64,000 nt of DNA from a virus. The position numbers and the translations under genes were made by a program. Of the stretch, positions 10,728 to 62,132 are shown one piece after another. Where the stretch lies: positions 1 through 64,000 of IMG/VR virus record IMGVR_UViG_3300006750_000004; one strand, given 5' to 3'. A model generated the notes under the pieces. It did not search any database and was not told where the DNA came from. It was given only the letters and a program-made list of their open reading frames with translations. How positions within the stretch are numbered: position 1 is the stretch's first letter; each line of letters begins with the position of its first letter.

Positions 10728-10813
10728 TGCTTGGTGATCATGTGTCATGAGTGGATCGAGAAGCAACGCCGATTCGCACTAGGGTGTATACGGACCGGTA
10801 TAGAGAGGAACCA

Positions 10814-11068
10814 ATGGCTGATTCAAACAAAGACGACACAAACAACCCAGGCTTCAAGACTACTGAGCTATGGCTCACTACTATAACTGGTCTCGTCAGT
10901 ACTATTCTTGGTACGACGGCACCCAGCGAGACGACTACTGTTCTGATTGTCTGTCTTACAATCGCGGCCGTGACATATCTTCTATGCCGTACCGTGTTTA
11001 AGGTAGCCAAACTTAAGTATCGTCCATCTGACGCTGTCTCATTCGCCACACAAAAGGCAGAAGAATAA
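10814..11068 (+). CDS. Small membrane protein, holin-like candidate
   Basis: 84 residues from the ATG at 10814, which follows a GAGAGG ribosome site. After an acidic 'KDDTNNPG' start come two hydrophobic segments (about residues 18-37 and 45-65, 'TTVLIVCLTIAAVTYLLC'), then a basic tail. This size and layout fit phage holins or holin-like proteins of the 'KTTE-x-W' type. No endolysin lies beside it, so the lysis role is uncertain. Confidence 0.5.
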   Translation: MADSNKDDTNNPGFKTTELWLTTITGLVSTILGTTAPSETTTVLIVCLTIAAVTYLLCRTVFKVAKLKYRPSDAVSFATQKAEE

Positions 11069-11087
11069 CTCGATTAGGTGGGCAGCT

Positions 11088-11546
11088 ATGGATAGTCGCC
11101 ATACACAGGTGGGCCGTATGGCAATCAAAGACCCTAGCCATCCTCTCTGGTCCATCACACGACTAGTCATCTATATGGGAGCGTTGACCTTCCTCCTTTG
11201 GCTCAACGCATCCAACTTCGACGTCACAGAACTGCGGACAATCGTCCTAATGTTCCTAGCTGGCGGAATTGCTGCGGGCATCGGACAAATTATCAATGTT
11301 GTCCGGAAGAAAGAGAAAGCCCCAACAGACCCAATCCACCCATTGTGGGGCATGATCCGCCTCGCCATCTTGGGCACCCTCTGTTTCATTCTCTGGTTGA
11401 ACGCCTCTCACTTCGACAAGACTGAAGATAAGACTATTATGTGGATGTTCGTAGTCGGTGCAGGATCTGAGGGTCTTGGACAGCTTCTCAGTAAGCTCCA
11501 AGTGACCGTTCTACCTAGCGGTCCGGAAGTGACAGATGACCCGTAG
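11088..11546 (+). CDS. Four-helix membrane protein made of two repeats
   Basis: 152 residues. Two homologous halves each contain 'HPLW', a membrane segment ending 'LWLNAS(N/H)FD', and a second hydrophobic helix ending in a Gly-Leu/Ile-Gly-Gln type turn. The protein thus looks like an internally duplicated two-helix unit. Two ATGs (11088 and 11118) each have an AGGTGG site at good distance, so two start forms are possible. Function unknown; it lies between the holin-like gene and NucS. Confidence 0.6.
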   Translation: MDSRHTQVGRMAIKDPSHPLWSITRLVIYMGALTFLLWLNASNFDVTELRTIVLMFLAGGIAAGIGQIINVVRKKEKAPTDPIHPLWGMIRLAILGTLCFILWLNASHFDKTEDKTIMWMFVVGAGSEGLGQLLSKLQVTVLPSGPEVTDDP

Positions 11547-19547: not shown

Positions 19548-20018
19548 CTATAGATCCGAGACCTTTGTGACATCATCATTGTTGTCCAGCTCTTCCATAA
19601 TCGCTGTTTTTCGCGATTCTCTGACCTGGGTCACGACTTCACTGACTTCGATGGCACCAGATTTCATTTGTTTGGTGTACTCTTCGGTCAGTGCGATTTG
19701 GTCGTGTGACGCCACGAGAAGTGGATCAATATTCCTCATTCTAGATACGGCGACATTTAATTGTATTCTGAAATAATCATCCTCTTCCTCCCAACGTTCT
19801 TTGAGGAGAGGCATACCTGTTTCTTTCAAGCATTCGATGAATACTTTATATTTCACCGTCTCTTCGACCATTTGCTCCCATTCTTCACGTTCGACCTGGG
19901 TATGCAGGGTCAACATGGATCCCTCTTCATAAAAGAGGATAGTACCTTCTAATATGAATAATGTGGGATGATTCTCTTGCTTACGTTTGGGTTTCTTCTT
20001 GGATTTCTTTTTACCCAT
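19548..20018 (-). CDS. Hypothetical helical protein with basic N-terminus
   Basis: 156 residues. The first 14 residues are almost all Lys/Arg ('MGKKKSKKKPKRKQ'), followed by a short strand region and long acidic helices. No family recognised. A small basic tail plus helical body fits a DNA- or protein-binding virion component, but that is a guess. It lies 48 bases upstream of the giant gene in the same direction, so it may be co-transcribed. Confidence 0.55.
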   Translation of the reverse strand: MGKKKSKKKPKRKQENHPTLFILEGTILFYEEGSMLTLHTQVEREEWEQMVEETVKYKVFIECLKETGMPLLKERWEEEDDYFRIQLNVAVSRMRNIDPLLVASHDQIALTEEYTKQMKSGAIEVSEVVTQVRESRKTAIMEELDNNDDVTKVSDL

Positions 20019-20319
20019 GGATTTCTGGTAGCCTCCTAGCTTTGTCGTCGATCAAGTGATCGTAATATGGTTTGTCTAATCGGAGCTGGTAGTATTTACA
20101 ACCCCACTGTTTCAGTTGTCGTTCCGTCAGTGAACGCCAATTAATGCCTGTTTTGGCACCGCGTGACGTCCAATAAATAACCGTGTGGCCCTGGTCGAAG
20201 ATCTCGTTGATTTTGTCTATATTATCTTGGCATGGAACTGAATTTTTGTAATCTGGCATTCCATCCTTGGTTGGTGTAAAACAGATGGTCATATCGATGT
20301 CGACATAGTATTCTTGCAT
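20011..20319 (-). CDS. Short HAD-superfamily phosphatase (sugar-phosphate type)
   Basis: 102 residues from the ATG at 20319, which has GGAGG five bases upstream; the longer open frame opposite the oxygenase gene is not used. The motif 'VDIDMTICF' gives the DxD nucleophile pair (usually DIDGT, here Met for Gly). 'VIYWTSRGAKTGINW' provides the motif II Ser/Thr, and 'DKPYYDHLIDDKA' the Lys and the acidic motif IV. The same plan is seen in capsule-linked phosphatases and in the C-terminal half of the protein at 23140-24072. Possible substrates are Kdo-8-phosphate or heptose bisphosphate type sugars. Confidence 0.75.
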   Translation of the reverse strand: MQEYYVDIDMTICFTPTKDGMPDYKNSVPCQDNIDKINEIFDQGHTVIYWTSRGAKTGINWRSLTERQLKQWGCKYYQLRLDKPYYDHLIDDKARRLPEIHG

Positions 20320-20342
20320 CATCCCCTCCAGGACTAAGTACC

Positions 20343-21020
20343 ATGAATTGGCTATTACCAAAAGATGCGAGCCCAGCTGATGTAATTCAATTTGTCCAAG
20401 AACATGGTATTGCAGTCCTAGAAGGATATGTCTCAGATCAGGACTTATTGAATAAAGCAAAAGATGAAGCTTTGGCTGAATCACTTAAAGCTAAGAGTGG
20501 TTATAAATTTGGGAAGGCTATGCGATACGGGCCACACCACATTAATGGTCCTGTGGAAAAATTACTAGCAATTAGTAATATTCTGGCAGATCCTAATTGT
20601 TTAGAGATAGAGAAACTCTCTGGTAAGAAACGCCAGGAAGTATTCATTACTCATGAGTATATCCAGAGTCCCGAACCAGAACGTAATGGATTCTTACATT
20701 TTGATAGGAATAGTACATTCAAACTCATATTCTACTTGATGGATGTGAACGAACAGTGTGGCCCGTTTCGGGCTATAATGGGCACACACATTTTGGGACG
20801 GGAACTTCGTACTAAGGAATGGAAGAGGACGCGAATCAATTCGTCAATCAAGAATAGACTAGCTATTGATTATCCGGAATTAGGATATACTGAGAATGAC
20901 GGTAATCCTGTGATTGGCCCAGCAGGTACATTAATTGTGCTTGATACCGATACCCTGCATAAGGGAGGATTGGTGGAATCACAACATCAGCGACTAATTT
21001 TGAGGACTCACTGCAGATGA
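20343..21020 (+). CDS. PhyH-like Fe(II)/2-oxoglutarate oxygenase
   Basis: 225 residues, double-stranded beta-helix fold. The iron ligands HxD are in 'LHFDRNSTFKLIFYL' (about 120-134), and the distal His with the 2OG-binding Arg are in 'TLHKGGLVES...RLILRTH' near the C-terminus. Family members hydroxylate small molecules, sugars or peptides. Its stop overlaps the GT29-like gene by 4 bases, so it may hydroxylate a sugar intermediate or a glycan, which is inference from context. Confidence 0.75.
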   Translation: MNWLLPKDASPADVIQFVQEHGIAVLEGYVSDQDLLNKAKDEALAESLKAKSGYKFGKAMRYGPHHINGPVEKLLAISNILADPNCLEIEKLSGKKRQEVFITHEYIQSPEPERNGFLHFDRNSTFKLIFYLMDVNEQCGPFRAIMGTHILGRELRTKEWKRTRINSSIKNRLAIDYPELGYTENDGNPVIGPAGTLIVLDTDTLHKGGLVESQHQRLILRTHCR

Positions 21021-21655
21021 TTATTGAACATGTTTCTCCAAAACTTGAAATATCAAAAAACCTGGCTATTGTTGGTTCTTGTGCTAAATTGAAGTTGTCT
21101 AAGTACGGAGATGAAATAGACAGTTTTGACGATGTTCTCAGATTTAATAGGGCACCAACTGAAGGATACGAAGAGATCGCCGGTAGTAAGACTACGGTGC
21201 GTATTACTAATGGCCATGTCTTCATGAGTATGCCATTTACGCGATGGGAAGAGGACCAGAATTTCGTACGGAGGCTACGGGATACACGGCTCATCGTTGC
21301 TCGGGGTCCAGAATTAATACCTCGTCGCGATGAGGCTATTGATAAGAGTATCGAGTTGTTTCAAATTACTCAGTCATTCGATCAGATTCTCAAACCGGAA
21401 GCGCCACATGTTAAGATGCTGCGACCACGGCGGCTCAAGATAACAGTGCCCACTGTTGGTTTAATGGGAATCATGCTTATGGTGAATTCTGGTCTCCGCC
21501 CTGTCGTCTATGGGTGGAGCACGTCAGCCGATGAGCCGATGAGTCATTATTTCAATAATCGGTCTCCCACGACCAGTAATTATCATAAGTGGGAGACGGA
21601 AATGGCGTTAGTACAGCACCTAATCAAGACAGACAAGATAGAGGTCCGCAAATGA
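21017..21655 (+). CDS. GT29 sialyltransferase-like protein
   Basis: 212 residues. About residues 17-62 match sialyl motif L of eukaryotic-type sialyltransferases: 'IVGSCAKLKLSKYG', then 'IDSFDDVLRFNRAPTEGYE' and 'GSKTTVRI'. A 'VPTVGLMGIMLM' segment takes the place of motif S, and 'HKWETE' near residue 190 satisfies the motif VS pattern HxxxxE, with its catalytic-type His. GT29 enzymes use CMP-sialic acid or related CMP-ulosonic acids. The CMP-sugar synthetase gene at 30374 would supply such a donor. No membrane anchor is present. It is coupled to both neighbours by ATGA overlaps. Confidence 0.8.
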   Translation: MIIEHVSPKLEISKNLAIVGSCAKLKLSKYGDEIDSFDDVLRFNRAPTEGYEEIAGSKTTVRITNGHVFMSMPFTRWEEDQNFVRRLRDTRLIVARGPELIPRRDEAIDKSIELFQITQSFDQILKPEAPHVKMLRPRRLKITVPTVGLMGIMLMVNSGLRPVVYGWSTSADEPMSHYFNNRSPTTSNYHKWETEMALVQHLIKTDKIEVRK

Positions 21656-23139: not shown

Positions 23140-24072
23140 ATGTTAACTGTCAATTTCAATAACCTACGGACTATTCGAGTACAACAACCCAAAGTCTTCG
23201 TGGAGACTGGTCTCCAACATGGGGAAGGTGTAAAACAAGCGTTGAATGCTGGATTTGAAACAATTTACAGTATTGAACTTCGAAAAGTGAGTTGTGATGA
23301 GGGTGAGAAGAAATTTGCACAACAGAGGAAAGATGGTAAAGTACACATAATCCATGGCAGATCGGAAGAACAACTTGGGCCGGTAATCAGTAAGATTAAT
23401 GAACCAATTACGTTTTGGCTTGATGCACATTTGGCTCCAGGGCATCTTACGACAATTGGTACGGATGAATATGGTGTATGGTGTCCTTTATATTCAGAAT
23501 TGGAGCATATCGCCAGGCACCCAGTTAAGAACCACATTATTCTGATCGATGATATCGATCGTCTTGATGAAGAATATAATTGGACTGAAGAAGTAAAACT
23601 GGATATCATCAAGTCCAAGGTTCTCGAGATTAACCCACATTACACCATATCTCTTATTTGTGGTGGGTCTATTCTTTATGCCCGTCTAGAGGCTAAGACT
23701 ATAGCATTCGACATAGATGATGTTATCTGTTTTCGGGACGAAACATCATCAGCCGAATTCATAATCGGTCCTGAAAAATATGAAGGATGCTCTCCCAACC
23801 AAGATAAGATACGGTTGGTGAATGAATGCTACGATGCTGGGTATATAATTATTCTATACACTTCACGTGGTATGGGTCAATTCAATGGAGATTCTGAGAG
23901 GTGTGAACTAGAACTTACTGAGGTGACCACCAGACTCTTGAATGAATGGGGAGTGCGGTATCACCAAATTGTTTTCGGTAAGATTCATTTCGACTTGTTG
24001 GTCGATGATAAGACACGAGATTCTAACGATATACACACTCTTAACGATGTGAAAGTCGCCTTAGGTGATTAA
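23140..24072 (+). CDS. Methyltransferase-like / HAD phosphatase fusion protein
   Basis: 310 residues in two parts. Residues 1 to about 185 look like a class I methyltransferase-type Rossmann domain ('VFVETGLQHGEGVKQAL', 'IYSIEL', 'FWLDAH', 'IILIDDIDR'). Residues about 190-310 form an HAD phosphatase with 'AFDIDDVIC' (DxD), 'IILYTSRGMGQF', and 'GKIHFDLLVDDKT'. The second half is related to the 102-residue protein at 20011. A single polypeptide combining these functions is unusual. The HAD part would suit a Kdo- or heptose-phosphate phosphatase; the first part could also be non-catalytic. Confidence 0.7.
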   Translation: MLTVNFNNLRTIRVQQPKVFVETGLQHGEGVKQALNAGFETIYSIELRKVSCDEGEKKFAQQRKDGKVHIIHGRSEEQLGPVISKINEPITFWLDAHLAPGHLTTIGTDEYGVWCPLYSELEHIARHPVKNHIILIDDIDRLDEEYNWTEEVKLDIIKSKVLEINPHYTISLICGGSILYARLEAKTIAFDIDDVICFRDETSSAEFIIGPEKYEGCSPNQDKIRLVNECYDAGYIIILYTSRGMGQFNGDSERCELELTEVTTRLLNEWGVRYHQIVFGKIHFDLLVDDKTRDSNDIHTLNDVKVALGD

Positions 24073-24845
24073 TGAAGCTGATCCCAAACAAACTTCGGCA
24101 GACAGTCCTAACGATGGTGCATGGTAACGGATCCGGGCACATCGGCGGCAGTTTCTCCATAGCAGAGGCAGTAGCTTATCTCTACTCCAATTTCAACCTT
24201 ATAGAGGGCGATGGAGATAAACTCGTTTTGTCTAAAGGCCACTCAATCCCGATTGTCTATGCGGCCCTATATGAATTGGGCCTCATATCGGACGACGACT
24301 TGAAGAAATTTCGCCAGATCGATTCACCGTTACAGGGCCACCCACATAAGCTAGCATTACCATATATCCATGCTTCCACCGGATCCCTTGGTCAAGGGCT
24401 AAGTATTGCTATCGGGCATGCGATGGGGATGAGGATGAGGGGTCAGACCACCAAATCATTTTGTATTATAGGTGATGGCGAGTCGCAGGAAGGGCAGATC
24501 TGGGAAGCTTTGATGTTAGCACCGAGACATAAACTTGGAAACCTGGTTTGTTTTATTGATCGGAACGGTGGTCAAGGAGACGGGCCTGTAGATGATATCC
24601 TGAGTTTGGGAGATCTGCATGCTAAAGTGAAAGCGTTCGGTTGGAACACCCGGACTATTAATGGTCATGATGTTTGGGAGATTGACCAAGCGGTGAATTC
24701 TGTTAAAGCTGATACTCCGACTTGTATTATATGCAATACAATTAAAGGTCGTGGAGTATCGTTCATCGAGGGTGGCTGGCATGCGAGAGTCCCGAATGAT
24801 GATGAATACAAGATGGCAATGGAGGAATTAGATGAAGGCAACTAG
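24072..24845 (+). CDS. Transketolase, N-terminal (thiamine diphosphate) subunit
   Basis: 257 residues. 'LSKGHSIPIVYAAL', 'GSLGQGLSIAIGHA' and the thiamine-diphosphate/Mg motif 'GDGESQEGQIWEA...DRNG' are clear. This is the PP half of transketolase, encoded separately as in many archaea and bacteria. With the next gene it should transfer two-carbon ketol units, giving for example sedoheptulose-7-phosphate or erythrose-4-phosphate. It is coupled to the previous gene (TAATG) and followed by the partner subunit after a 14-base overlap. Confidence 0.9.
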   Translation: MKLIPNKLRQTVLTMVHGNGSGHIGGSFSIAEAVAYLYSNFNLIEGDGDKLVLSKGHSIPIVYAALYELGLISDDDLKKFRQIDSPLQGHPHKLALPYIHASTGSLGQGLSIAIGHAMGMRMRGQTTKSFCIIGDGESQEGQIWEALMLAPRHKLGNLVCFIDRNGGQGDGPVDDILSLGDLHAKVKAFGWNTRTINGHDVWEIDQAVNSVKADTPTCIICNTIKGRGVSFIEGGWHARVPNDDEYKMAMEELDEGN

Positions 24846-25773
24846 AGATGGCTTTGGTGATCAACTCGCTGCAATGGCTAATATCAAAACCCTGGTGGTC
24901 CTCAATGCGGACTTGGCGGACGCTACGCGTCTGAAGAAATTCGCAGCTGCCGCTCCTAATCGATATATGGAGATTGGCATTGCTGAGGCTAATATGATCG
25001 GTATTGCTGCTGGTTTATCCGAATATGGGTATAAGGTGGTCATTCCATCATTTGCTGCCTTCATTACTGGGCGGTACGATATTATCCGGTGTTCTCTAGC
25101 ATACCAGAACAAGCCGGTCTTGGTGGTTGGAACACATGCTGGGATGGCGATTGGTAAAGATGGTGTGACTCAGATGGGGTTGGAAGACATTAACCTCATG
25201 CGTGGTCTGCCTAATATGAATATCATCCAACCAGCCACTTATTATGAGGCAATGCGGGCTACCGAGTATGCAATCAATTCAGACAAGCTCATCTATTTGA
25301 GACTGGGTCGGCAACCGGTGAAAGAGATGTTCGATGAAGATTGCGAATTTAAATTTGGTAAAGGTCAGGTGTGTCTAGAGGGATCACATATTACGGTTAT
25401 CTCTAGTGGGTGTACTTTAGAAATGGCTCATAATGCGGCCACCAAGATGGGTGCATCATTAATCAACATGCCCACACTCAAACCCATCGACAAGGATATT
25501 ATCAAGATTTACGCCAGGACATCTAAACTCATTGTAACCGTGGAAGATCACACAATCGTGGGTGGTCTTGGCTCAGCCGTTGCTGAAGTCCTTGCTGAGG
25601 CTTACAACTGTTCATCGCAATTGTTGCGGATAGGGATTCAGGACGAGTTTGTTGAGTCAGGACCACCGGCCGATCTTTATGACAAGTATGGTCTTACTGC
25701 CGATAGTATTGTGAACCAAATAAATAGGTTAAGCTTCAGCCCCGAAAGCTCTAACCACTCGTCGCTTAAGTAA
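24832..25773 (+). CDS. Transketolase, C-terminal subunit
   Basis: 313 residues. It holds the Pyr domain with the cofactor-activating Glu ('RYMEIGIAEANMIGIAAGL'), 'SFAAFITGRYD' and 'THAGMAIGKDGVTQM', and a C-terminal regulatory-type domain ('TVEDHTIVGGLGSAVAEVL'). GGAGG sits six bases before the ATG. It partners the preceding gene. The last 45 bases overlap the convergent GmhA gene; a sugar-isomerase gene that uses the transketolase product, next to it, fits a heptose route. Confidence 0.9.
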   Translation: MKATRDGFGDQLAAMANIKTLVVLNADLADATRLKKFAAAAPNRYMEIGIAEANMIGIAAGLSEYGYKVVIPSFAAFITGRYDIIRCSLAYQNKPVLVVGTHAGMAIGKDGVTQMGLEDINLMRGLPNMNIIQPATYYEAMRATEYAINSDKLIYLRLGRQPVKEMFDEDCEFKFGKGQVCLEGSHITVISSGCTLEMAHNAATKMGASLINMPTLKPIDKDIIKIYARTSKLIVTVEDHTIVGGLGSAVAEVLAEAYNCSSQLLRIGIQDEFVESGPPADLYDKYGLTADSIVNQINRLSFSPESSNHSSLK

Positions 25774-26391
25774 ACCTGTCGCGATATGCGATAGTTTGCC
25801 GACGCAATCCTCGAAGTGGAAGTTGTTGTTATTCCCACCAGTCTGCCCTGGGAAATTTGAATTCCCAGCGATGACGATGCCGTGATCGGCTAACTCTATA
25901 GCTGGTGTATCGCTGAATTTAGCGATAGCAATTGTCTTCATGCCGATCTCTTTGGCAGTCTTGATCGCCTGGACAATGTTCTTGGATGTACCTGATCCTG
26001 TGATTCCGATCAACAAATCACCAGATCCGCCGCCAAATCGGAGCTGTTCTGAGAAGATATGCTCTGGACCGATATCGTTCATAATAGCTGTGATTGACGA
26101 CCCGGATTCACATAGGTTAATAGCGTGTAGTCGCTTGGGAACCACCATTGGGGTGCTCTTGTCCTCAGATACAAATGGATGCATATTGAGGTCGGTGATT
26201 AGATTCCCAACAAAGGCCGCATTCCCGCCATTTCCGCAGGCGTAAACTTTAGCACCGGCTTCATAAGCATCGATGATCATATGAACGAATTTAGTGATGG
26301 CATGATCATCAATCTCACTGAAGACCTTATTAGCTTCGCGTTTGTAAAGTTTTACCAGCTCTTCTGTTGATGGAGGTCCCATTAGCACCAT
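25729..26391 (-). CDS. gmhA: Phosphoheptose isomerase-like SIS protein (GmhA type)
   Basis: 220 residues with one SIS domain: 'VYACGNGGNAAFVGNLITDL' near residue 45-65, 'ITGSGTSKNIVQAIKTAKEIGMKTIAI' and a C-terminal 'HFEDCVGKLSHIATGLL'. In GmhA this fold converts sedoheptulose-7-phosphate to heptose-7-phosphate. The start at 26391 overlaps the previous stop (ATGA) and has AGGGG six bases before it; the frame opens at an earlier ATG (26409). The insertion 'QTGGNNNNFHFE' is unusual. Substrate is inferred from the family and the transketolase neighbour. Confidence 0.8.
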   Translation of the reverse strand: MVLMGPPSTEELVKLYKREANKVFSEIDDHAITKFVHMIIDAYEAGAKVYACGNGGNAAFVGNLITDLNMHPFVSEDKSTPMVVPKRLHAINLCESGSSITAIMNDIGPEHIFSEQLRFGGGSGDLLIGITGSGTSKNIVQAIKTAKEIGMKTIAIAKFSDTPAIELADHGIVIAGNSNFPGQTGGNNNNFHFEDCVGKLSHIATGLLKRRVVRAFGAEA

Positions 26392-27932
26392 CATCGTCCC
26401 CTTAAACATTGTGTTAGTCGTAACTTGCCAAACAAGAACAGGAACTCCCTGTACTTGGTATCATCGTACAAACTGGCAATAGTTATATATTGGAGAGCAC
26501 CAAGCATCTCAACATGTTTCCAATCGTAATCCTGTGATCTACAAAATTCTTCCAACTTATTCATCAACAGCAATAGATTGTATCTACTGTCAATATTGAC
26601 AAAAGCATTCCAGCCACGGATTTCGAGAGAATATTTGCCGTCTACGATGTTGGTTCCGTTGACGATCAAGGCGTGGTGCAACTTCCCTAGGTCGTAGTAA
26701 AGATCGCCAACCGTTGTGCTTCTACCAAAGGAGTCACGCCAGTCTAGGAGAGTAACACACTCCCGGTCTATGACGATATTTTCTGGTTGATAATCACCAT
26801 GGAAATGGAAGGGGATGGCCTTGTCGCAGATGCCCCACCAATCCACGATGTCTAATAACTCGGCAATAGGGCGTACCCCGATGCCATTGATTGTTACAAT
26901 ATTATCGACTTCTGTGCCGACGAAGGATTGTGCTCTTATTCTGGTCTTTTTCTCGTACATCTCCTGGCATGATTTGTTGAACTCATCGCCAGATTCTATC
27001 GGTAGTTCAACAAAAAAATCGCCACAAAACTGAATGAACTTGTCGAGCACTTTCTCATCGTAGGTGTGGGAGAGTAGATTCCCTATCACATATTCATAAC
27101 CGTATTGGTGGTCGCTCAATCGGGTAATTCGTGGTACTTTGCCAGCTAAAATTGTTGCTCTCTCACATCGGTGGCCGACTATCTCACTATCTGAGAAGAA
27201 TTTGACGACTTTGCCGTTGTCGATGTAGAGGACCTCTTCCTTTTTAGCTATGGTTACTGGTTGTGGGAAGTGTTTGAGAGTATTGTCGTATCGCTCATCT
27301 GTCCCGGTGTCCTGCCACCGAAATCTCTTGGCGGTCAATGGGACAGATGAGAATCCATTGATCACTTGGTGCTCATTGTTGATCGTGCTCTTGTCGGATA
27401 AACCGCCCCAGAACGCTTCATAATCGTGGATTCCGGCTATCCCGATGAAGACATCGTTGCCAAGTCCTTGGGCTGGGTCGTAGTAAAATCTCTTGACGTA
27501 CTCGTTGGGGCCTATATCCACTAGGCAGTATCCGGTTAGTTCGTCCCTTGGTCGTTGATCTACTCCCACCCAGTTATTAGTGGGTGCTTCTAATTTGGCG
27601 TTGAAAAGTGTGTCGATAGATGTGAACACGAATGGGCAACTGAGGTGTTCACGGCATGATAATAAGCTCAATCCAGGACCTGATCCTGGGCCGTCGTAGT
27701 TGTCTACTGTCACGAATGTGAAATTGTGATTTGGGTAGATGTACTCCAAGTAGGATTGGAGCTGATCGTGTAAGTGGCCCAATGCGATGACCACCTCAAC
27801 TGATGGATCCACACAATCTAGGATATATGAGATTGCGGGACGGTTGGCTAGTGGGAGGAGAGCTTTGTGGAGGTTGTGGAAGCGATCATTTCTAGTGCCG
27901 CGTCCTGCTGCCATTAGGCAGAGTTTAAACAT
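26391..27932 (-). CDS. Bifunctional sugar nucleotidyltransferase / APH-type kinase
   Basis: 513 residues. The N-terminal half starts 'LCLMAAGRGTRNDRFHNLHKALLPLANRP', a nucleotidyltransferase signature (GxGTR...K), with 'FTSIDTLF' as the metal Asp. The C-terminal half is a kinase-like fold with 'FHFHGDYQPENIVID' (catalytic loop HGD...N) and 'LLDWRDSFGRST...GDLYYDLGKL' (metal Asp). The two domains in one chain resemble fused cytidylyl-/kinase systems such as LicC-LicA or heptose kinase-guanylyltransferase pairs. Next to GmhA it may phosphorylate and activate a heptose. Confidence 0.8.
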   Translation of the reverse strand: MFKLCLMAAGRGTRNDRFHNLHKALLPLANRPAISYILDCVDPSVEVVIALGHLHDQLQSYLEYIYPNHNFTFVTVDNYDGPGSGPGLSLLSCREHLSCPFVFTSIDTLFNAKLEAPTNNWVGVDQRPRDELTGYCLVDIGPNEYVKRFYYDPAQGLGNDVFIGIAGIHDYEAFWGGLSDKSTINNEHQVINGFSSVPLTAKRFRWQDTGTDERYDNTLKHFPQPVTIAKKEEVLYIDNGKVVKFFSDSEIVGHRCERATILAGKVPRITRLSDHQYGYEYVIGNLLSHTYDEKVLDKFIQFCGDFFVELPIESGDEFNKSCQEMYEKKTRIRAQSFVGTEVDNIVTINGIGVRPIAELLDIVDWWGICDKAIPFHFHGDYQPENIVIDRECVTLLDWRDSFGRSTTVGDLYYDLGKLHHALIVNGTNIVDGKYSLEIRGWNAFVNIDSRYNLLLLMNKLEEFCRSQDYDWKHVEMLGALQYITIASLYDDTKYREFLFLFGKLRLTQCLRGR

Positions 27933-28570
27933 GGGTAATCTTTCCCGGTGTATAACTTAAACTGCTCTGCCGCCTGGATTGAGGCTAATCTTTGTCCCAT
28001 GGGCGTAGTGATCAGACAATCAATATAATGGTTGGATGGAACCGGTCGAACTTGTCTCTTCTCTAATGGAGTGCAATTGAATATAACAGATTGAGAAAGA
28101 TCCTGTATGCGGCCCCAATTGGTCCGTGTAATGAGTTCAAATTCCATCTCTAGGGTTTTACAGGCATATTGGACGGCTTGCGAATAACCACCATTACCTA
28201 GGATGTAGATTGTGTTTGACTGATGTCCTTTAAGAAACCATTCGGCTGCGATCCAGTCGGTATTGTAGGCGATTAGGTGTCCATCATTATTGATGATGGT
28301 GTTTGCGGCCCCGATATCCCTTACCGGGCCGGAGCATGCATCAACATGACTGATGACTTTCTTCTTGAAGGGCATCGAGATCCCGGCACCAGAAATCCCA
28401 AGTACACGCATTGCATCTAGTGCTTCTCTGATATTGTCGACACCGAATGATCTATAAATAGCATCGATCCCGAGATTTTGGAATCCTCTATTATGGAATC
28501 GGCAACCCCAGTTACCAGGTTCCTTGGAAAAGGACCCATAGATCTTAGTCTTCTTGTTGATGTTCGTCAT
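27914..28570 (-). CDS. Shikimate dehydrogenase-like protein (AroE family)
   Basis: 218 residues from the ATG at 28570, preceded by GGAAGG. 'GISMPFKKKVISHVD' and 'IGAANTIINNDGHLIAYNTDW' match the substrate-binding N-terminal half of AroE, with the catalytic Lys and Asp. 'IYILGNGGYSQAV' is the NADP-binding loop. It is shorter than AroE (about 270), and the last part is truncated. No other aromatic-pathway gene is nearby apart from transketolase and a DAHP/KDO8P-synthase-family enzyme, so the substrate may be a related sugar acid. Confidence 0.75.
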   Translation of the reverse strand: MTNINKKTKIYGSFSKEPGNWGCRFHNRGFQNLGIDAIYRSFGVDNIREALDAMRVLGISGAGISMPFKKKVISHVDACSGPVRDIGAANTIINNDGHLIAYNTDWIAAEWFLKGHQSNTIYILGNGGYSQAVQYACKTLEMEFELITRTNWGRIQDLSQSVIFNCTPLEKRQVRPVPSNHYIDCLITTPMGQRLASIQAAEQFKLYTGKDYPCLNSA

Positions 28571-29003
28571 CGATCCTTCCGCTCGGCCGGTTAGTATCAT
28601 CCTCGTACCGCACCACATCATCTAAATGCGGAGTGGATGCTTCGATAGCCGTGTATGAGGTTTTGGCTACAACGCGGTGCTTGCGTCCGGTCGGGACAGA
28701 CCATCCGTTCCCGACTTTGTAAACCCGTGATTGGAGTACACCGTCTGCATCTTCTAGTAGAACTTCGGCCTCTCCTTCGATCACGAAGTTGGTCTCGTAC
28801 TTGTCTTCGTGCGATTGTAAGCTGCTCTGGTTCCCAGCGTCCATCTGGATGAGCTTCAACACGTAAAATTCATTGATCTCCATCCAGATTTCATAACCCC
28901 AAGGTTTCTTTACCCGGTAGGAACTGACGGTTAACTCATCCGGCTTCTGGTCTGCAATAAGCTGTCCGTAATCGGCTATGGCTTTGGCGATGAGGGGATT
29001 CAC
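28545..29003 (-). CDS. Cupin, mannose-6-phosphate isomerase type II-like
   Basis: 152 residues. 'KPWGYEIWM', 'SLQSHEDKYETNFVIEGEAEV' and 'GWSVPTGRKHRVVA' provide the metal His/Glu set of the PMI type II cupin, and 'STPHLDDVVRYEDDTNR' is the family's C-terminal signature. Such stand-alone cupins isomerise hexose phosphates in sugar-nucleotide clusters. It overlaps the shikimate-dehydrogenase-like gene by 26 bases and the methyltransferase gene by 4. Confidence 0.8.
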   Translation of the reverse strand: MNPLIAKAIADYGQLIADQKPDELTVSSYRVKKPWGYEIWMEINEFYVLKLIQMDAGNQSSLQSHEDKYETNFVIEGEAEVLLEDADGVLQSRVYKVGNGWSVPTGRKHRVVAKTSYTAIEASTPHLDDVVRYEDDTNRPSGRIDDEHQQED

Positions 29004-29713
29004 TTAGTTATCTCCACGTAAAGGCTGAAAGGTTGGCGGTTCGGCTTCCAGGAGTCGAACATGCCGCTCTCGAGCATGGTTTTTGAGTTCGATCTTTGAT
29101 ATTGACTTTCGTGGATGTCGACAAACCCTGCCTTTGTTAAAAGGGTTGAGAATTTATCGAAATTCCACCAGTTAATGTGTTGTGTGGTCACTTTAGGATC
29201 GTCTTTAGGTACCAGTCCTTGTGCCCATTCGCAAAATGCTTTAATTCCAAATGTAGCTTTTAATTTGACTTCCTGTTCTGGGATGCCCATTGGAGGTCCA
29301 CGGTAAAATCCCTTTGGACCTTGGTAGTCATAGTTAGCTACCCAGTGGAGCAGAAGACTCGAAATAGTGTCTGGCACATCATATTTTGCCCATTCTGGGC
29401 GTGCACCCCTGATAGATCGAAACCATTTCTCATCATTTAGGCGATATTTCCGAATGAAAAATTCGAAATCTGGCACAACTATTCTAAATATACCACCTGG
29501 TTTCAGGACTCGGTAGGTTTCTTCAAACAGATGTAATGATGTTTTGTCGTCTACATGTTCAAAGAAATGGGACGAATATGCATTTTCGACTGAATTGTCG
29601 GCGAATGGTAGAATAGTCTCTGCATTGAGAAAGTCGCCACATATCTTATCGATCCCACGCCAACCGGTTAAATTCCAGCTATCTCCTGATCCTAGATTTA
29701 TTCCTTTAACCAT
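29000..29713 (-). CDS. Class I SAM-dependent methyltransferase
   Basis: 237 residues. 'GINLGSGDSWNLTGWRGID' is a SAM-binding glycine loop, 'LPFADNSVENAYSSHFFEHV' the second strand, and 'EETYRVLKPGGIFRIVVPDFEFF' the family hallmark of glycan-cluster methyltransferases. The ATG at 29713 is used; a GTG nine bases earlier is possible. Target unknown; the neighbours suggest a sugar or sugar-nucleotide intermediate. Confidence 0.8.
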   Translation of the reverse strand: MVKGINLGSGDSWNLTGWRGIDKICGDFLNAETILPFADNSVENAYSSHFFEHVDDKTSLHLFEETYRVLKPGGIFRIVVPDFEFFIRKYRLNDEKWFRSIRGARPEWAKYDVPDTISSLLLHWVANYDYQGPKGFYRGPPMGIPEQEVKLKATFGIKAFCEWAQGLVPKDDPKVTTQHINWWNFDKFSTLLTKAGFVDIHESQYQRSNSKTMLESGMFDSWKPNRQPFSLYVEITK

Positions 29714-29714
29714 A

Positions 29715-30347
29715 TTAATCACGGAGCGACAGAATTACGAATCCCAGTTTGATATCTGGTTGATTGTGTTGCTCTTCCTCGTAGTACTTGATTGTATATT
29801 TCTTAGTGAATGGGTCTAGAAAGTCTCTATTTGACAAAATTAGACCATTAGTATAATTGCTCCTGTAATTTGGTGATTCGATTGTTGTTGCACCAAGTTT
29901 GGTTTGGATTACCATGGTTGGCACAGCAATCGAATTCCAAATAGTCGCTATTTTCTTCCAATATTCATGGGTTGGGAAATGATGAATAACACTATAACAC
30001 ACTAGCAGGTCTGATTGTGTATCTGGTATTTGAGCATCTGGGTCTGAGAATTCGATTGTCTGAACAACCTTTTCACCGACGTAATCTGACGCTTCTTGGA
30101 GACTTTCTGAGGCAATGTCTAATAAAATAAGGTCTGAAAACTCTGAGATCATCTTCGCTAGCAATCCACCACCACACCCCCAATCAAGTGTCGTATTTAT
30201 AGCATCTGTGTCGATTTGGTCTAAAGCATGTTGCTGGAATCGGCCGATCAGCACTTGTTTCTTTTTAGGTCCTATCTTCTTTCTGAAGTGTTTATGTCCA
30301 TCACAGACTTGGCCCCTCCAGAATCGTTGTAAATCATTTGGTTCCAT
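29715..30347 (-). CDS. SAM-dependent methyltransferase-like protein
   Basis: 210 residues from the ATG at 30347, which has GAGG seven bases before it. 'TTLDWGCGGGLLAKMI' is the SAM loop, with 'LILLDIASESLQEA' and 'SDLLVCYSVIHHFP' following as in class I methyltransferases. The start lies within the first copy of an exact 40-bp tandem duplication (30322-30401), which also creates extra in-frame and out-of-frame ATGs. The gene ends two bases from the start of the next methyltransferase. Confidence 0.75.
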   Translation of the reverse strand: MEPNDLQRFWRGQVCDGHKHFRKKIGPKKKQVLIGRFQQHALDQIDTDAINTTLDWGCGGGLLAKMISEFSDLILLDIASESLQEASDYVGEKVVQTIEFSDPDAQIPDTQSDLLVCYSVIHHFPTHEYWKKIATIWNSIAVPTMVIQTKLGATTIESPNYRSNYTNGLILSNRDFLDPFTKKYTIKYYEEEQHNQPDIKLGFVILSLRD

Positions 30348-30401
30348 ACAATGCCTCGACCAATCGTTGTAAATCATTTGGTTCCATACAATGCCTCGAC
30401 C
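30322..30401. repeat. Exact 40-bp tandem duplication across a gene junction
   Basis: Bases 30322-30361 and 30362-30401 are identical. The unit carries the start codon of the methyltransferase gene and the last codons and stop of the CMP-sugar synthetase gene. In a single-copy ancestor the start ATG would lie inside the last codons of the synthetase gene (overlapping genes); now the two genes are separated. Confidence 0.97.
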
Positions 30402-31060
30402 AATTGGACATCTTCAATCGTGTCGATGTCCAGAGACCGTGTTTTAGGCATTGAATATGCCCTTACTCGGCCTTTATAGAAATTCGGGCTTTTCTTAAAT
30501 GAGTCGGTCCACCGCAGGTATACGGCACCGTTGGGGCGGTAAATACCACTATGGTCTTGGGATCGTGTATTTCCTGTTAACCATGGTAGGCTGTGGTCGG
30601 AACAGTGAAGTAAACCATCTGGGTCCAGACACAAGCCTAAAGTTGGTGGGAAATCATAATCAGTAATACTTATTACGCCATCTATATTCTTATCAAGCAT
30701 GGCGATAGCACATTCGATGTCTTCTGTGCTTCGTAGCGGGCAAGTGGGAAGGAACTGGCCTACATAATCATATTCAGCAGCCATCCCTCTGTCAATAATA
30801 GCGTGAGTAAGAGAATCTAGGACGGTTGACTTGTCTGTGACAGTGCTGGCTGGCAGCATAAAAATCTCTGGATTGCAAGAATGCTTCTCAGCTATTTTGG
30901 TAATTTTATCATCATCAGTAGCTATGACGATCTTGTCGAATATTGGTGCCAAGGTATCGAGTGTGTGATGAATAAGGGGTCTGCCAAGTAGTGTGATAAT
31001 ATTCTTGTTTCGCAGCCTTTTCGATCCACCACGTGCTGGGACAAATGCTACACCCTTCAT
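30374..31060 (-). CDS. neuA: CMP-sialic acid synthetase-like cytidylyltransferase
   Basis: 228 residues. 'FVPARGGSKRLRNKNI' at residues 6-21 is the CTP-binding signature of NeuA-type enzymes (KdsB has a different 'IPARYASTR' form). 'DKIVIATDDDKI', 'QFLPTCPLRSTEDIECAI' and the C-terminal 'RSLDIDTIEDVQLVEALY' complete the family pattern. It activates nonulosonic acids (sialic, legionaminic, pseudaminic) or Kdo-like acids as CMP-sugars. It overlaps the KdsA-like gene by 4 bases. The symbol is a family-level call; the sugar is not fixed. Confidence 0.85.
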   Translation of the reverse strand: MKGVAFVPARGGSKRLRNKNIITLLGRPLIHHTLDTLAPIFDKIVIATDDDKITKIAEKHSCNPEIFMLPASTVTDKSTVLDSLTHAIIDRGMAAEYDYVGQFLPTCPLRSTEDIECAIAMLDKNIDGVISITDYDFPPTLGLCLDPDGLLHCSDHSLPWLTGNTRSQDHSGIYRPNGAVYLRWTDSFKKSPNFYKGRVRAYSMPKTRSLDIDTIEDVQLVEALYGTK

Positions 31061-31830
31061 GAGATCGCTACCTCACTGATTTTATCGAAGCGATTGAGTA
31101 GTCTAGCCCAATCTTTTAGCGGAATCTGGCAATCCGCGTCTGAGTAGGCTTGTGACGGATTTGGATGGACTTCAGCGAAGATGCCGGTGTATCCGAAAAT
31201 AGGGGCGGCTAGCATATATTTCATAGCTAATTCTCGGTCACCGCCAGTGAAATCGCCCTTGCGTTGTTGGGTCGAGTGGGTACAATCTAGAAAGACACGG
31301 TCCCCATAATCAGCCATTTCTTCGACAGCACCAAAATCGACGAACAACTTCTCATACCCGTGATTAGAACCACGGTCCGTAATCCAGACTTGTGCGTTGG
31401 GGTTTTGGCTTCTGATTTTCCCGGCGAAGTGTTTGGTGTTTTCTGGACTGACCCATTGGCCCTTCTTGACATGGACGATATCAAAGTGCTTGCCGCATTC
31501 GATAAGCAGGTCTGTTTGACGGCATAAGAAGGCAGGCACCTGGATGACGTCGATTAGGTCTTTGAGTGGCTCTACTTGATGGACTTCGTGGATATCAGTG
31601 GTAAGTCGTAGGTCTGGGAATTTTTCTTTGGCGGCGGCTAGTAATTCGAGTCCCCTTTCCCAACCTGGGCCACGTCGCCCTTGTACGGCGGATCTGTTGG
31701 CTTTGTCGAATGATGCTTTGTAGTACCAGTTACGGCCTTGCATCAGGTTGTTGAGTTTTTCAGCTGTGTTTAGATAGAGACTTTTTGTCTCCATTCCGCA
31801 TGGTCCGACTATCCATACAATATCCAGCAT
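31057..31830 (-). CDS. kdsA: KdsA-like 3-deoxy-D-manno-octulosonate 8-phosphate synthase
   Basis: 257 residues, TIM barrel. 'YYKASFDKANRSAVQGRRGPGWERGL' carries the phosphoenolpyruvate-binding Lys/Asp/Lys set, 'IQVPAFLCRQTDLL' and 'VKKGQWVSPEN' are near-invariant in KdsA. The enzyme condenses PEP with arabinose-5-phosphate to Kdo-8-phosphate. 'DCTHSTQQ' matches the family DATHS-like segment with Cys replacing Ala. It is slightly shorter than bacterial KdsA (about 280). With the HAD phosphatases and CMP synthetase it gives a route to a CMP-activated acid sugar. Confidence 0.88.
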   Translation of the reverse strand: MLDIVWIVGPCGMETKSLYLNTAEKLNNLMQGRNWYYKASFDKANRSAVQGRRGPGWERGLELLAAAKEKFPDLRLTTDIHEVHQVEPLKDLIDVIQVPAFLCRQTDLLIECGKHFDIVHVKKGQWVSPENTKHFAGKIRSQNPNAQVWITDRGSNHGYEKLFVDFGAVEEMADYGDRVFLDCTHSTQQRKGDFTGGDRELAMKYMLAAPIFGYTGIFAEVHPNPSQAYSDADCQIPLKDWARLLNRFDKISEVAIS

Positions 31831-33590
31831 TAAAGACCTTCTTTATCCAGTCTGGATTCGATCAGCTGTAGAACTGCTTTGACTGCTTTGACGTGTTCTG
31901 GTTTCGCTTCACCAAATGATATCCTGTTGGTTGTTTTTAGTAGACCTTTTACGTTCAAGGCAATTTGGAGTGCGCGGTGCCATCCAATAGGTCCGAAGAC
32001 CGCGAATAGTGGGTCTTCGTACCGTTCTACTATTTTGTGGGCGGTGGTGGTGAGACCTTCTTTCATGGCGATGTAGAAGGCTTCTTCGATCTGTGGATAA
32101 ATATTGCCGATTCCACCGAGGAAATTTTGGGCTCCGGCGGGTTGAGTAAGCAAGTATCGACGACAACTACCTCCCGCCGGGAAGATGAGAAATTTGTGAT
32201 CAGCTTGGCGGCTTACTTTATAGGCCATTTCATAGGAGGTGCTCTCCTCCTTCATGCCGATAATATTATCGTGTTTCTTGAGTTTGGCGACAATCTCGGG
32301 TGTGAAGTTGTATGTGCCACCGGCTACCGCGTTCCGCATGAACATGCCGTGAACCATTACTGGCACTTTTAGTTTGTCGGCTGCCCTGAAGAAATAACCA
32401 CACACATCCTCGTCTGAGTAGTACCTGTCTGGGTACATGAGCATAACAGCGTCGGGTTCCCAACTATTGGCGTGGTCAATCCATCTACTTAATAATTTAT
32501 CTGGAACCGGGGGTAGCCCGAGAATCTTTGTACCTTGGAATTGGTTGCACGAGGCGTTGAGTGCCTCTATTTCATGGTTCGTCAACATGTTGAAGCGGGC
32601 TGTGCCAGCTGTCACCAAGATGATTTTAGCACCGTTCTTATGTAGGTGTTCCAGATAATTTTCGACGGCTACTTGGTCGAAGTCGCCTTGGCTGTCGAAT
32701 GCTGGTGGAATTGGGTAGATGACACCGCTGGTGAATTTTTCTGGGAACATTTCTCGTTTGATTCTGTCTGATATCGTCCAGGGGTATTGTTCGTGCTCGT
32801 AATAGTTGAATAATTCGTCGATTCCTGGTGGGATTTGTAGTTCGTCGGATTCTAGGACTGCGGGGATGTTGTTGGGTTTGCGGTCGTTGTCTGGTCGGAC
32901 GCATATTTTGGCGTCGATGAGTTTTTCGAGTGGTTTTTTATACGTACTAAAATACTTACTGTGCATGTCATACCCGTAGAATTGGGCTTTCATCGCCACT
33001 TTCTCGAGGTCCATTATTGAGTAGTGATGGCGGATTCCGATTTCTTTGGGTACGGGCCGGATGTCTTTTGGTGCACTACCGCGAATGATTTGTGGTCGGT
33101 GGATTAGGACCAGGCCCTGTTTTTTCTTGTGGATTCTGGCCGGTCTGTTCCAGAATTTCTTGGTGCCATCTTTAGCCACCACTACGTTGTAATATCTATA
33201 GTAATAATATTCGTGGTGTGAATAATTGAGTGTTTGAGTTTTGTCGATGTAAGCTCTTGTACCCTCGATACATTCTGGGGTATAGAATTCATCTGCATCG
33301 ATGTGCCAAACATAATCACCTGTGGCTTTGTTATAATAGGCAGCCACCATAGCATCCTTACCGACCCATGTATCTTTAGTGATAAGGATAATTTTATTAT
33401 CTGGATCTGGGAAGTCCCTGATTATCTGTAGGGTCTTATCCCTGGTCTTGGGGAACTTGTCACCTAGTTCTGTCGATCGCCCTTCGACTATAATTATTTC
33501 ATAGGCGTGGGGGTACAGATTAATAAGCTGTTGACGTATCAGATATGCCTCATTATAACAAATGAGACAAAATGAAATTCGCATTTTCAT
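31830..33590 (-). CDS. GT2 glycosyltransferase fused to a DapA/NanA-family aldolase
   Basis: 586 residues. Residues 1 to about 285 are a GT2 domain ('FCLICYNEAYLIRQQL', DXD in 'WHIDADEFYTPE'). Residues about 290-586 are a class I aldolase barrel: 'GVIYPIPPAF' start, 'VTAGTARFNMLTNHE' replacing the usual GTTGE segment, the Tyr region 'MYPDRYYS', and the Schiff-base Lys near residue 446 in 'IIGMKEES'. That family includes N-acetylneuraminate lyase and dihydrodipicolinate synthase. No stop or start separates the parts. It may make or cleave an ulosonic acid and transfer a sugar in one enzyme. Confidence 0.85.
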   Translation of the reverse strand: MKMRISFCLICYNEAYLIRQQLINLYPHAYEIIIVEGRSTELGDKFPKTRDKTLQIIRDFPDPDNKIILITKDTWVGKDAMVAAYYNKATGDYVWHIDADEFYTPECIEGTRAYIDKTQTLNYSHHEYYYYRYYNVVVAKDGTKKFWNRPARIHKKKQGLVLIHRPQIIRGSAPKDIRPVPKEIGIRHHYSIMDLEKVAMKAQFYGYDMHSKYFSTYKKPLEKLIDAKICVRPDNDRKPNNIPAVLESDELQIPPGIDELFNYYEHEQYPWTISDRIKREMFPEKFTSGVIYPIPPAFDSQGDFDQVAVENYLEHLHKNGAKIILVTAGTARFNMLTNHEIEALNASCNQFQGTKILGLPPVPDKLLSRWIDHANSWEPDAVMLMYPDRYYSDEDVCGYFFRAADKLKVPVMVHGMFMRNAVAGGTYNFTPEIVAKLKKHDNIIGMKEESTSYEMAYKVSRQADHKFLIFPAGGSCRRYLLTQPAGAQNFLGGIGNIYPQIEEAFYIAMKEGLTTTAHKIVERYEDPLFAVFGPIGWHRALQIALNVKGLLKTTNRISFGEAKPEHVKAVKAVLQLIESRLDKEGL

Positions 33591-35260: not shown

Positions 35261-36430
35261 TTAATCCAGGAAGCAAACATGGTTGTTTTGTGGACCGGTT
35301 CCAACAATTGTGACTGGAATACCAGCAATATCTTCAACCATATGTATGAAATCCGTCACCTTTTTAGGTAGTGCACCATATTCGTTGGTGCCATAGCACG
35401 ACCAATCAATATAATTGGCGAAATTCAGAGCTATTTTGTTAGCTCCGTTGACGAGAGCAGCTTCTTTGAGCTGTTTCTTCGAGAACGTGAATACACGTCG
35501 TAATCTCTTGGTAACGGTGGTTAGTTCGCCTTTCATCACTTCTGGCGGGGCGTTTGCCTCTCGTGCTATGTTCTCCCACGATGTTTCTTCGTGGTCGTCG
35601 TAGTGGCCACCAGAGTGTCCAACCGTCTTACCGTCTTCGATGACATTGCCGACACGGATTGGTGCGGGTCTGATTACTAAATAGACGTCACCCATAGCAG
35701 TATGTGGTAAGCCCATGTCCGCCAAGTTCTGAATGGCGGTAGTACCCCGACTAGTGCATTGTGGGTAATGTGAGCCATGATTAATGTCGAGAGAGAACCC
35801 TTGGGCTCCTTCATGTAGGATAGTAACCCCGAAACGTTCCATAAGGACCATCAGCGTTTGTGGCAGGCTCATTCCTTGAACGTAATCAGAAATTTCTGGG
35901 TCGACATTATCAATCTTCTTGCCTATAGCCGATGGCATGTAACCAGATAGGGCATCATAATCTCGAGCAAGTTTAAGTTCCCTCTTACGCATGATTTTAT
36001 CTGCGAGAAAGGACCCACAACCCTGCATTGTGCTGGCTAGGTGTTTAGTACCAGTGGTTAGGTTGCCTTCGGCTTCCTTGTGGGCGTCTGTAATAACTCC
36101 AGCTCGTTCGTGGATTGTGAGTTGATAGCTGGATTCGGTTTCCTGGATCTCTTTATGCATCTGCTCAATGGTGAATGCTGCACTACACCCCACGACGATG
36201 TGTGGATCATATTCTTTGATCCACTTGCGAAGAATAGCTGCAGAGGGAAGAGCTTTTGCTACAAATTCGTCTTTGCCGTTTTCGTGAACGGCGGTATGGC
36301 CCGCATTAGCCATATTCGTAGTTGAGATGATTCCGGGGCGATAACGTGATGCTATGGCGGTACAAATAAGACCTTTGCCGCAACTACCCCAAGATCCGTC
36401 AGTTACTACATTAAATCGCCGGTCTTGCAT
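35261..36430 (-). CDS. PurZ-like adenylosuccinate synthetase homologue
   Basis: 389 residues. The protein is related to PurA along its length, but the P-loop region reads 'GSWGSCGKG' where PurA has GDEGKG, so the catalytic Asp is replaced by Ser16. It also has 'NMANAGHT' (His45). Both features are those of PurZ, which uses dGMP and aspartate to start 2-aminoadenine (Z base) synthesis in S-2L-type phages. GGAGA precedes the ATG by six bases. DatZ, MazZ and a Z-type polymerase are not in this window, so the Z-genome inference is open. Confidence 0.8.
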   Translation of the reverse strand: MQDRRFNVVTDGSWGSCGKGLICTAIASRYRPGIISTTNMANAGHTAVHENGKDEFVAKALPSAAILRKWIKEYDPHIVVGCSAAFTIEQMHKEIQETESSYQLTIHERAGVITDAHKEAEGNLTTGTKHLASTMQGCGSFLADKIMRKRELKLARDYDALSGYMPSAIGKKIDNVDPEISDYVQGMSLPQTLMVLMERFGVTILHEGAQGFSLDINHGSHYPQCTSRGTTAIQNLADMGLPHTAMGDVYLVIRPAPIRVGNVIEDGKTVGHSGGHYDDHEETSWENIAREANAPPEVMKGELTTVTKRLRRVFTFSKKQLKEAALVNGANKIALNFANYIDWSCYGTNEYGALPKKVTDFIHMVEDIAGIPVTIVGTGPQNNHVCFLD

Positions 36431-61420: not shown

Positions 61421-61744
61421 ATGGTAGATATTGTAGTTTCAATCTTTTTGATGGGGACCTTGGTGTGTGAGATCGCTGTTGTGGTTTTGGCTTACCGGGT
61501 CGTGTCTAAGATTGGAAGTATTCCCGCCAGTACTTTGAGAGACATAGCAAATGCCTGGAGCGAACGACGAGTTGCTCCGGTCGATGAAGCATCAACTGGA
61601 TATAACGAGAGCGAAAGCAGACAGCGAGCAGCCACAAAAGTCGAAGAAATCCCGCCAGAAATCTTCGCACCAAGTCTCAAAAAACCGCCAAGGCCCGAAG
61701 GTGGTTTCGGCTCTCGTGTCAGTAAAGATGATGGCGATCCATAA
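61421..61744 (+). CDS. Small single-pass membrane protein
   Basis: 107 residues. A hydrophobic N-terminal segment (residues 3-26, 'VVSIFLMGTLVCEIAVVVLAY') is followed by a polar Pro/Lys/Glu-rich tail. Two bases separate it from the previous gene. No family. The 61551 frame on the same strand overlaps its second half. Confidence 0.6.
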   Translation: MVDIVVSIFLMGTLVCEIAVVVLAYRVVSKIGSIPASTLRDIANAWSERRVAPVDEASTGYNESESRQRAATKVEEIPPEIFAPSLKKPPRPEGGFGSRVSKDDGDP

Positions 61745-61792
61745 TTTTTCCAAAAAGATAAGAGTCCAAACCCAAGAAGTAAAGGTAGTACA

Positions 61793-62044: not shown

Positions 62045-62132
62045 CGCCCTTTCAAGCGATAGCCGAGTTTCGGCTAATCCGAACTATCAAGTATACAGGC
62101 TCGGTGATGTCTTCACCGGTAGGAGAATATTG

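Follow-up and report, generated by a model that had tools for sequence, protein, structure and literature searches.

A viral protein joining a GT2 glycosyltransferase to a divergent DHDPS/NAL-superfamily enzyme in a putative ulosonic-acid glycan cassette

Overview

In this study, a 586-residue viral protein composed of a GT2 glycosyltransferase and an enzyme of the DHDPS/NAL superfamily (referred to as ALD) was analysed together with its gene neighbourhood and its relatives. Its gene is located within the window, i.e. the whole 64,000-nucleotide stretch of DNA under analysis, which makes up positions 1-64000 of a virus record that is 95,725 bases long. We propose, with a probability of roughly 45%, that this protein is a viral bifunctional enzyme of an ulosonic-acid (Kdo/nonulosonic-type) glycan cassette, in which ALD modifies the product of KdsA or NeuB at C3-C4. 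The pathway of the cassette is well supported; the chemistry of ALD is inferred. Sequence comparisons indicate that the ALD domain belongs to a viral family that is conserved, linked to KdsA and otherwise encoded by genes of its own, and of which the fusion is one derived member; both points were missed by the original prediction, made from the letters of this DNA alone, as was the fact that the sequence is viral.

The virus record

The record carries phage-type replication genes (DnaE-like polymerase pieces, a UvsX/RecA-like recombinase, a DnaB-like helicase and SbcC) and therefore the fused gene belongs to an uncultivated, phage-like virus. Three other features of this virus were recorded. 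A PurA/PurZ-like protein (35261-36430, minus strand) reached 200 bits with the NCBIfam PurZ model (cut-off 300), scoring above purA, and a role in making amino-deoxyadenylate for a genome modified with 2-aminoadenine is therefore possible. A protein of 568 aa (61551-63257, plus strand) contains a Volactin domain (E 6.8e-35), which was unexpected in a phage-like record, as Volactin is an actin-like family known from archaea. Finally, the DnaE-like polymerase matches fall into three pieces (L002 4062-12414), the second of which is separated from the third by a homing-endonuclease-like ORF (9623-11158), and this gene is likely split by an intein or an intron.

Architecture of the fused protein

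The fused gene (31830..33590, minus strand) is a single ORF without an internal stop, and its 586-aa product gave Pfam matches above the cut-off for both domains, namely Glycos_transf_2 at residues 6-128 (E 1.2e-10, 42 bits against a cut-off of 23.3) and DHDPS at residues 288-575 (E 1e-13). The original prediction that a GT-A/GT2 transferase and a Schiff-base aldolase-superfamily domain share one 586-residue chain was thus borne out. The protein was modelled with AF2 as two separate domains, and this structure prediction, which had been suggested as a check, matched the ALD domain with DHDPS/NAL enzymes and the GT2 core with GT-A transferases.

The GT2 domain (residues 1-280; 32751..33590, minus strand) carries the motifs D98-x-D100-E101 and HHYS and aligns along its full length with viral GT2s encoded by genes of their own (ten sequences, 278-302 aa), D98-x-D100 being invariant in all 11 sequences. 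The core of its model resembles GT-A transferases (Z 14.7), and the C-terminal third is of low confidence. The GT-A fold, DxDE and the HYS motif are common to this domain, to the GT2 glycosyltransferases of polysaccharide clusters and to GtrB-like phage proteins, but the protein from the window differs from these in carrying ALD at its C terminus.

The ALD domain (residues 281-586; 31833..32750, minus strand) shares 57% identity with the stand-alone ALD of L034/L015. Its model (pLDDT 91, pTM 0.89) matched DHDPS/NAL structures with Z values of about 30, at which many families were tied (e.g. 6t3t with Z 30.8, rmsd 2.4 and 288 aligned residues). The TIM barrel with C-terminal helices and the Schiff-base lysine expected of this superfamily were both found.

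The ALD family

Single-protein scans match exact 8-residue stretches only, and it was an alignment with bacterial DapA that opened the ALD family. Used as single queries in such scans of viral and genome collections, the whole fused protein and its separate domains retrieved no ALD relative, and KdsA as a single-protein bait gave no match in viral contigs. With alignments as queries, a relative of the ALD domain was found in 36 viral loci of uncultivated-virus contigs. Together with the window, these form 23 clusters at 90% identity, i.e. 22 lineages besides the window, whose ALDs diverge by up to about 70% in sequence. Every relative is a stand-alone protein of 284-340 aa, except for one cut by the contig end. 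In pairs of related loci the dN/dS of ALD was 0.05-0.26, which indicates purifying selection.

No ALD was detected by degenerate pattern scans (as opposed to a profile search) of 84,980 bacterial and archaeal genomes, none was found in the isolate-phage collection with the ALD of L015 as the query, and a viral scan aimed at the subclade of the window and L034 yielded no third member. Some short records labelled "Salmonella/Listeria phage" also matched DHDPS or GT2 but were set aside: their proteins are ordinary, distant members of these families, and the short contigs are unverified. When a maximum-likelihood tree was built with five reference members of the superfamily, the viral ALDs grouped together (support 100/99), set off by a long branch, and the ALDs of the window and L034 were sisters. 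These comparisons show that ALD is a divergent, virus-borne clade of the DHDPS/NAL superfamily, found only in uncultivated-virus contigs. Some of its members score near or below the Pfam cut-off of 22.1 (24.0 bits for L065 and 21.2 bits for L045), which may be the reason why ALD went unnoticed.

Origin and reality of the fusion

Among the 36 viral loci no second fused GT2-ALD ORF was observed, although records very near the window may lie outside the reach of this search. The original prediction knew of no described protein of this architecture, and none was encountered in the viral-contig, phage, plasmid and genome collections or in the open-access papers searched; a description of ALD itself was likewise not found in the open-access literature. 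Relatives of the two parts are encoded separately: in L045, GT2 and ALD are unfused genes of one strand, in this order and separated by 15 nt, and in L034 (the nearest relative) a GT2 that is 28% identical to that of the window is encoded on the opposite strand. Met281 (codon 32748..32750, minus strand), a possible internal start, is aligned with the start Met in 22/22 stand-alone ALDs. Given this position of Met281, the full-length GT2 and the gene order of L045, the fusion is therefore best explained as a head-to-tail join of two neighbouring cassette genes.

A different explanation is that the open frame does not reflect a true fusion: a consensus error could have removed a stop codon, or ALD could be translated on its own from Met281, and GT2 and ALD would then be two proteins. 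The stand-alone state of ALD in every other lineage, the alignment of Met281 with their start codons and the 15-nt spacing in L045 are in line with it, as is the fact that a single substitution just before Met281 would suffice to separate the two genes. Against it, the frame runs open through the junction and leaves both domains whole, a consensus error falling on this very point of the single record is unlikely, and the ribosome site before Met281 is only weak, although separate translation of ALD from this codon is possible. Taken as a whole, the two-protein explanation is unlikely. The original prediction had named a frameshift or sequencing error joining two genes, visible by comparison with relatives, as what would overturn it; the genes are indeed separate in the relatives, yet both domains are complete at the join, and a frameshift artefact is disfavoured as the cause. 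A genuine GT2-ALD fusion supports a functional link between the ALD step and GT2.

The gene cassette

The fused gene heads a tightly packed minus-strand run, in which it is followed by (i) KdsA, the Kdo-8-phosphate synthase family protein (31057..31830), (ii) a PseF/NeuA-like CMP-ulosonate synthetase (30374..31060), (iii, iv) the SAM methyltransferases MTa (29715..30377; Pfam and comparison with related loci), which is recurrent in the cassette, and MTb (29000..29722; Pfam), (v) a cupin/mannose-6-phosphate isomerase C-terminal domain protein (28545..29003; Pfam), (vi, vii) a shikimate-dehydrogenase-like protein (27914..28621) and a nucleotidyltransferase with an APH-kinase-like part (26391..27932), both with relatives in the cassette of L062, and (viii) a GmhA-like SIS sugar-phosphate isomerase (25729..26409; profile matches). 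The facing plus-strand run comprises a PhyH-type 2OG/Fe(II) oxygenase (20343..21020; profile match and related loci), a GT29 sialyltransferase-family protein (21017..21655; Pfam 1e-21, 34% identity to the GT29 of the L015 cassette), which is a candidate user of the CMP-ulosonate, and a transketolase split into N and C halves encoded by two overlapping genes (24072..25773; profile matches). A small HAD phosphatase, weakly EcbF/BcbF-like (20011..20484, minus strand; weak profile match and related loci), is recurrent in the cassette, as is PhyH. Two further observations concern this region: the split transketolase beside the GmhA-like isomerase could supply heptose or pentose phosphate for the glycan, and the N half of the protein encoded at 23140-24072 (plus strand) is methyltransferase-like, the remainder being a small HAD phosphatase that weakly matches EcbF/BcbF.

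The predicted KdsA is a convincing assignment, with 259 bits for NCBIfam PRK05198 (cut-off 242), a match to PDB 1fwn (Aquifex KdsA; E 2.9e-55) and the segment SFDKANR, which contains the KANR motif; with TIGR01362 it scored 239 bits, below the cut-off of 314. The CMP synthetase of the cassette is closer to PseF/NeuA than to KdsB, and PseF/NeuA-like synthetases were also found in the ALD cassettes tested. The same virus has a second, KdsB-like CMP-sugar synthetase (214 bits against 193) outside the window, at 79209-79928 of the record (L002 15209-15928), and this gene blurs the contrast between the KdsB and NeuA types.

Linkage of ALD to KdsA or NeuB was observed in all 21 lineages that are not cut. 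KdsA is present in 20 of the 22 lineages, in 19 of them directly downstream of ALD and overlapping or abutting it; in L065 NeuB takes its place, and L048 is cut off just after ALD. The other recurrent genes of the 22 lineages encode a CMP-synthetase (20), GT29 or a GT29-like protein (19), PhyH (16), a small HAD (15) and a GT2 relative (11); these counts are lower bounds from flanks of unequal length, and the lineages are related, so that they are not independent trials. The order ALD-KdsA-CMP synthetase-MT of the window is collinear with L015, with identities of 57, 59, 49 and 38%, respectively.

Further features were noted in other viral loci. Proteins of about 220-240 aa occupy the GT29 position directly beside ALD in L016 (4282-4992) and L017 (5944-6672); that of L016/L025 has no Pfam match and is possibly a new transferase family. 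A 632-aa protein in which NeuB is fused to a xylose-isomerase-like TIM barrel is encoded in L017 (7581-9479), with the same gene in L065, in an ALD cassette whose flanks, as far as they extend, contain no KdsA. The huge phage L013 (LR756508; 9213-14034) has a row of genes comprising at least four of the GT29 family and one that is NeuB-like.

The active site of ALD

Residues of ALD were mapped onto the numbering of E. coli DapA and NanA for 23 family members. Like the members of the superfamily (DapA, NanA, YagE/KdgA, HOGA, KdgD and KdaD), ALD has a TIM barrel of about 300 aa with the Schiff-base lysine, the carboxylate-binding Thr45 and Tyr107 (DapA numbering), all conserved in 23/23 sequences, and the position of Arg138 is Arg or Lys. 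The lysine (Lys447; 32250..32252, minus strand), which had been placed at about residue 446, was confirmed as the counterpart of DapA K161 and NanA K165, with its number corrected.

Several other positions set ALD apart from these enzymes. Thr44 of the relay is replaced by Gly in 23/23 ALDs (Gly329-Thr330 of the window, 32601..32606, minus strand, correspond to DapA T44-T45, with T in 23/23), the catalytic Tyr (DapA Y133, NanA Y137) by His in 22/23 and Asp in 1/23 (His414; 32349..32351, minus strand), Gly46 by Ser in 21/23, and Glu47 by Gln (19/23) or Arg. The carboxylate-binding motif GxxGE, in which both G46 and E47 are replaced, gives way to AGT(S/A/T)(Q/R/H/A) throughout the clade; it is a defining motif of most superfamily members and its absence therefore marks ALD as a divergent clade. 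New conserved motifs, GGS-x-R-R and GWH, were also observed. The original prediction that ALD lacks the GTTGE segment was correct for the last two letters: G43-T44-T45-G46-E47 of DapA reads A-G-T-A-R here, and ALD retains, like the dehydratase KdgD, the Gly-Thr pair whose backbone amides hold the pyruvate carboxylate.

The label of a sialic-acid-lyase-type aldolase in that prediction was not supported: by sequence, ALD lies at a similar distance from DapA, KdgD, archaeal KDG aldolase and NanA, and it does not resemble NanA in its sugar-binding positions. The residue set S47, Y137, D191, E192 and S208 of NanA is absent, the window having G329, H414, C476/M, R477 and G493, and the identity of a NanA-type lyase was not adopted. 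Position E192 of NanA is Arg in 20/23 ALDs and Lys in 2, the next residue (R478) is Arg in 23/23, and F252 is His in 23/23. DapA was rejected as an identity with TIGR00674 (49.5 bits against an equivalog cut-off of 206), and KdgD with TIGR03249 (34.4 bits against 374), PRK03620 (46 bits against 278) and the His at the catalytic Tyr position.

These scores bear on the explanation that ALD is an ordinary host-derived metabolic gene (DapA of lysine synthesis, KDG/KDPG aldolase, or KdgD of sugar-acid catabolism) with KdsA beside it incidentally. The best matches, weak as they are, were to models of dapA, PRK03620/KdgD and archaeal KDG aldolase, as this explanation would have it, but all lie far under the curated cut-offs, the relay residues are replaced, the linkage to KdsA or NeuB holds in every uncut lineage and the pattern scan returned no cellular relative; we consider it very unlikely.

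The clade thus keeps the Schiff-base lysine, with its acid/base and substrate groups changed, and the added Arg and His residues suggest an anionic substrate. A changed substrate, raised as a possibility in the original prediction, is likely. The active site of ALD differs from that of every studied relative. KdgD binds the C1 carboxylate through the amides of G53-T54, and KdaD has Glu where other members have Tyr (PMC13398020). ALD resembles KdgD in the Gly-Thr pair at the carboxylate loop and KdaD in that the superfamily Tyr is swapped for another acid/base, but it differs from both in its gene neighbours and in that the replacing residue is His, not Glu. Through its Gly-Thr pair, ALD may work in a KdgD-like manner.

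Proposed function of ALD

Enzymes of the DHDPS superfamily act on 2-keto-3-deoxy acids and other pyruvate-type substrates via a Schiff base at C2, and 2-keto-3-deoxy acids are the products of both KdsA and NeuB. ALD accompanies either of these enzymes, and therefore the simplest reading is that it would act on their product. Cleavage would, on balance, reverse what the pathway builds, ALD lacks the aldol relay, and its Gly-Thr pair is that of KdgD; for these reasons, dehydration or epimerisation at C3-C4 is favoured. The 2-keto-3-deoxy acid from KdsA, either free or as its phosphate, would be bound by Lys447 as a Schiff base at its C2 carbonyl, and ALD would alter the sugar at C3-C4 (by dehydration or C4 epimerisation) with no cleavage. 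By analogy with their families and from gene linkage, the CMP synthetase would activate the ALD product to a CMP sugar, GT29 would transfer it and the fused GT2 would add another residue of the same glycan, which is probably displayed on the surface of the virion or of the host.

The main rival reading, and a possible one, is that ALD is a true aldolase or lyase with His in place of Tyr, which either joins pyruvate to an aldose (phosphate), as a second route to an ulosonic acid, or cleaves an ulosonic acid of the host or virus like N-acetylneuraminate lyase or KDPG/KDG aldolase. The superfamily fold and the conserved Lys, Thr45 and Tyr107 agree with it, a phosphorylated aldose would suit the basic residues at the sugar-binding positions of NanA, and the majority of the characterised members of the superfamily are C-C lyases (PMC13398020). 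However, the Thr44/Ser77 and Tyr133/Tyr168 pair forms the proton relay of DHDPS and human HOGA and is needed for full activity (PMC3188589), and the relay pair Thr44/Tyr133 is gone in all or nearly all ALDs; cleavage would also undo the work of KdsA or NeuB. Some points weigh against modification at C3-C4 as the role of the fused protein: gene adjacency does not fix the reaction of ALD, whose activity is a prediction for every member, an ordinary aldol relay could work with His instead of Tyr, the virus also has the KdsB-like gene, and the fusion is known from a single record. A bolder extension of this role, in which ALD is a virus-only DHDPS branch that converts the product of KdsA or NeuB into an ulosonic acid absent from cells, the viruses place this sugar on virions or host surfaces, and the virus of the window has tied the ALD step physically to a glycan-building GT2, is doubtful.

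Relation to known viral systems and significance

Virus-borne KdsA occurs in the Kdo cluster of Cafeteria roenbergensis virus (CroV) and Fadolivirus, and in CroV a NeuA-like CMP synthetase and methyltransferase domains are also encoded, as in the ALD cassette (PMC9614988). These are giant protist viruses with an API/phosphatase fusion, and the part of that account available describes no DHDPS-type enzyme there (PMC9614988). A marine EVG (virus genome) with NeuA and KdsA resembles the ALD viruses in having ulosonic-acid synthesis genes among glycosyltransferases, and ALD is not mentioned for it in the accessible part of the report (PMC5332604). The same arrangement is seen in cyanophage S-SCSM2R and the huge phage LR756500, both with classical KdsA and KdsB, and a search of these two for ALD found none; the PseF/NeuA-like synthetases of the tested ALD cassettes contrast with this, which agrees with the proposed role of ALD. 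Virus-borne KdsA is already known, and its DHDPS-type partner ALD is undescribed in the available portions of the CroV, Fadolivirus and EVG accounts.

To our knowledge, the viral synthesis of acidic surface sugars is known mainly from single calls of KdsA, NeuA or NeuB and, in CroV, from a Kdo cluster that is unproved. The presence of ALD beside KdsA or NeuB in more than 20 viral lineages, without the standard aldol proton relay, points to a step that has been missing from viral ulosonic-acid synthesis and can be tested. ALD may lead to a new sugar, and the surface sugar of these viruses may be an unusual one.
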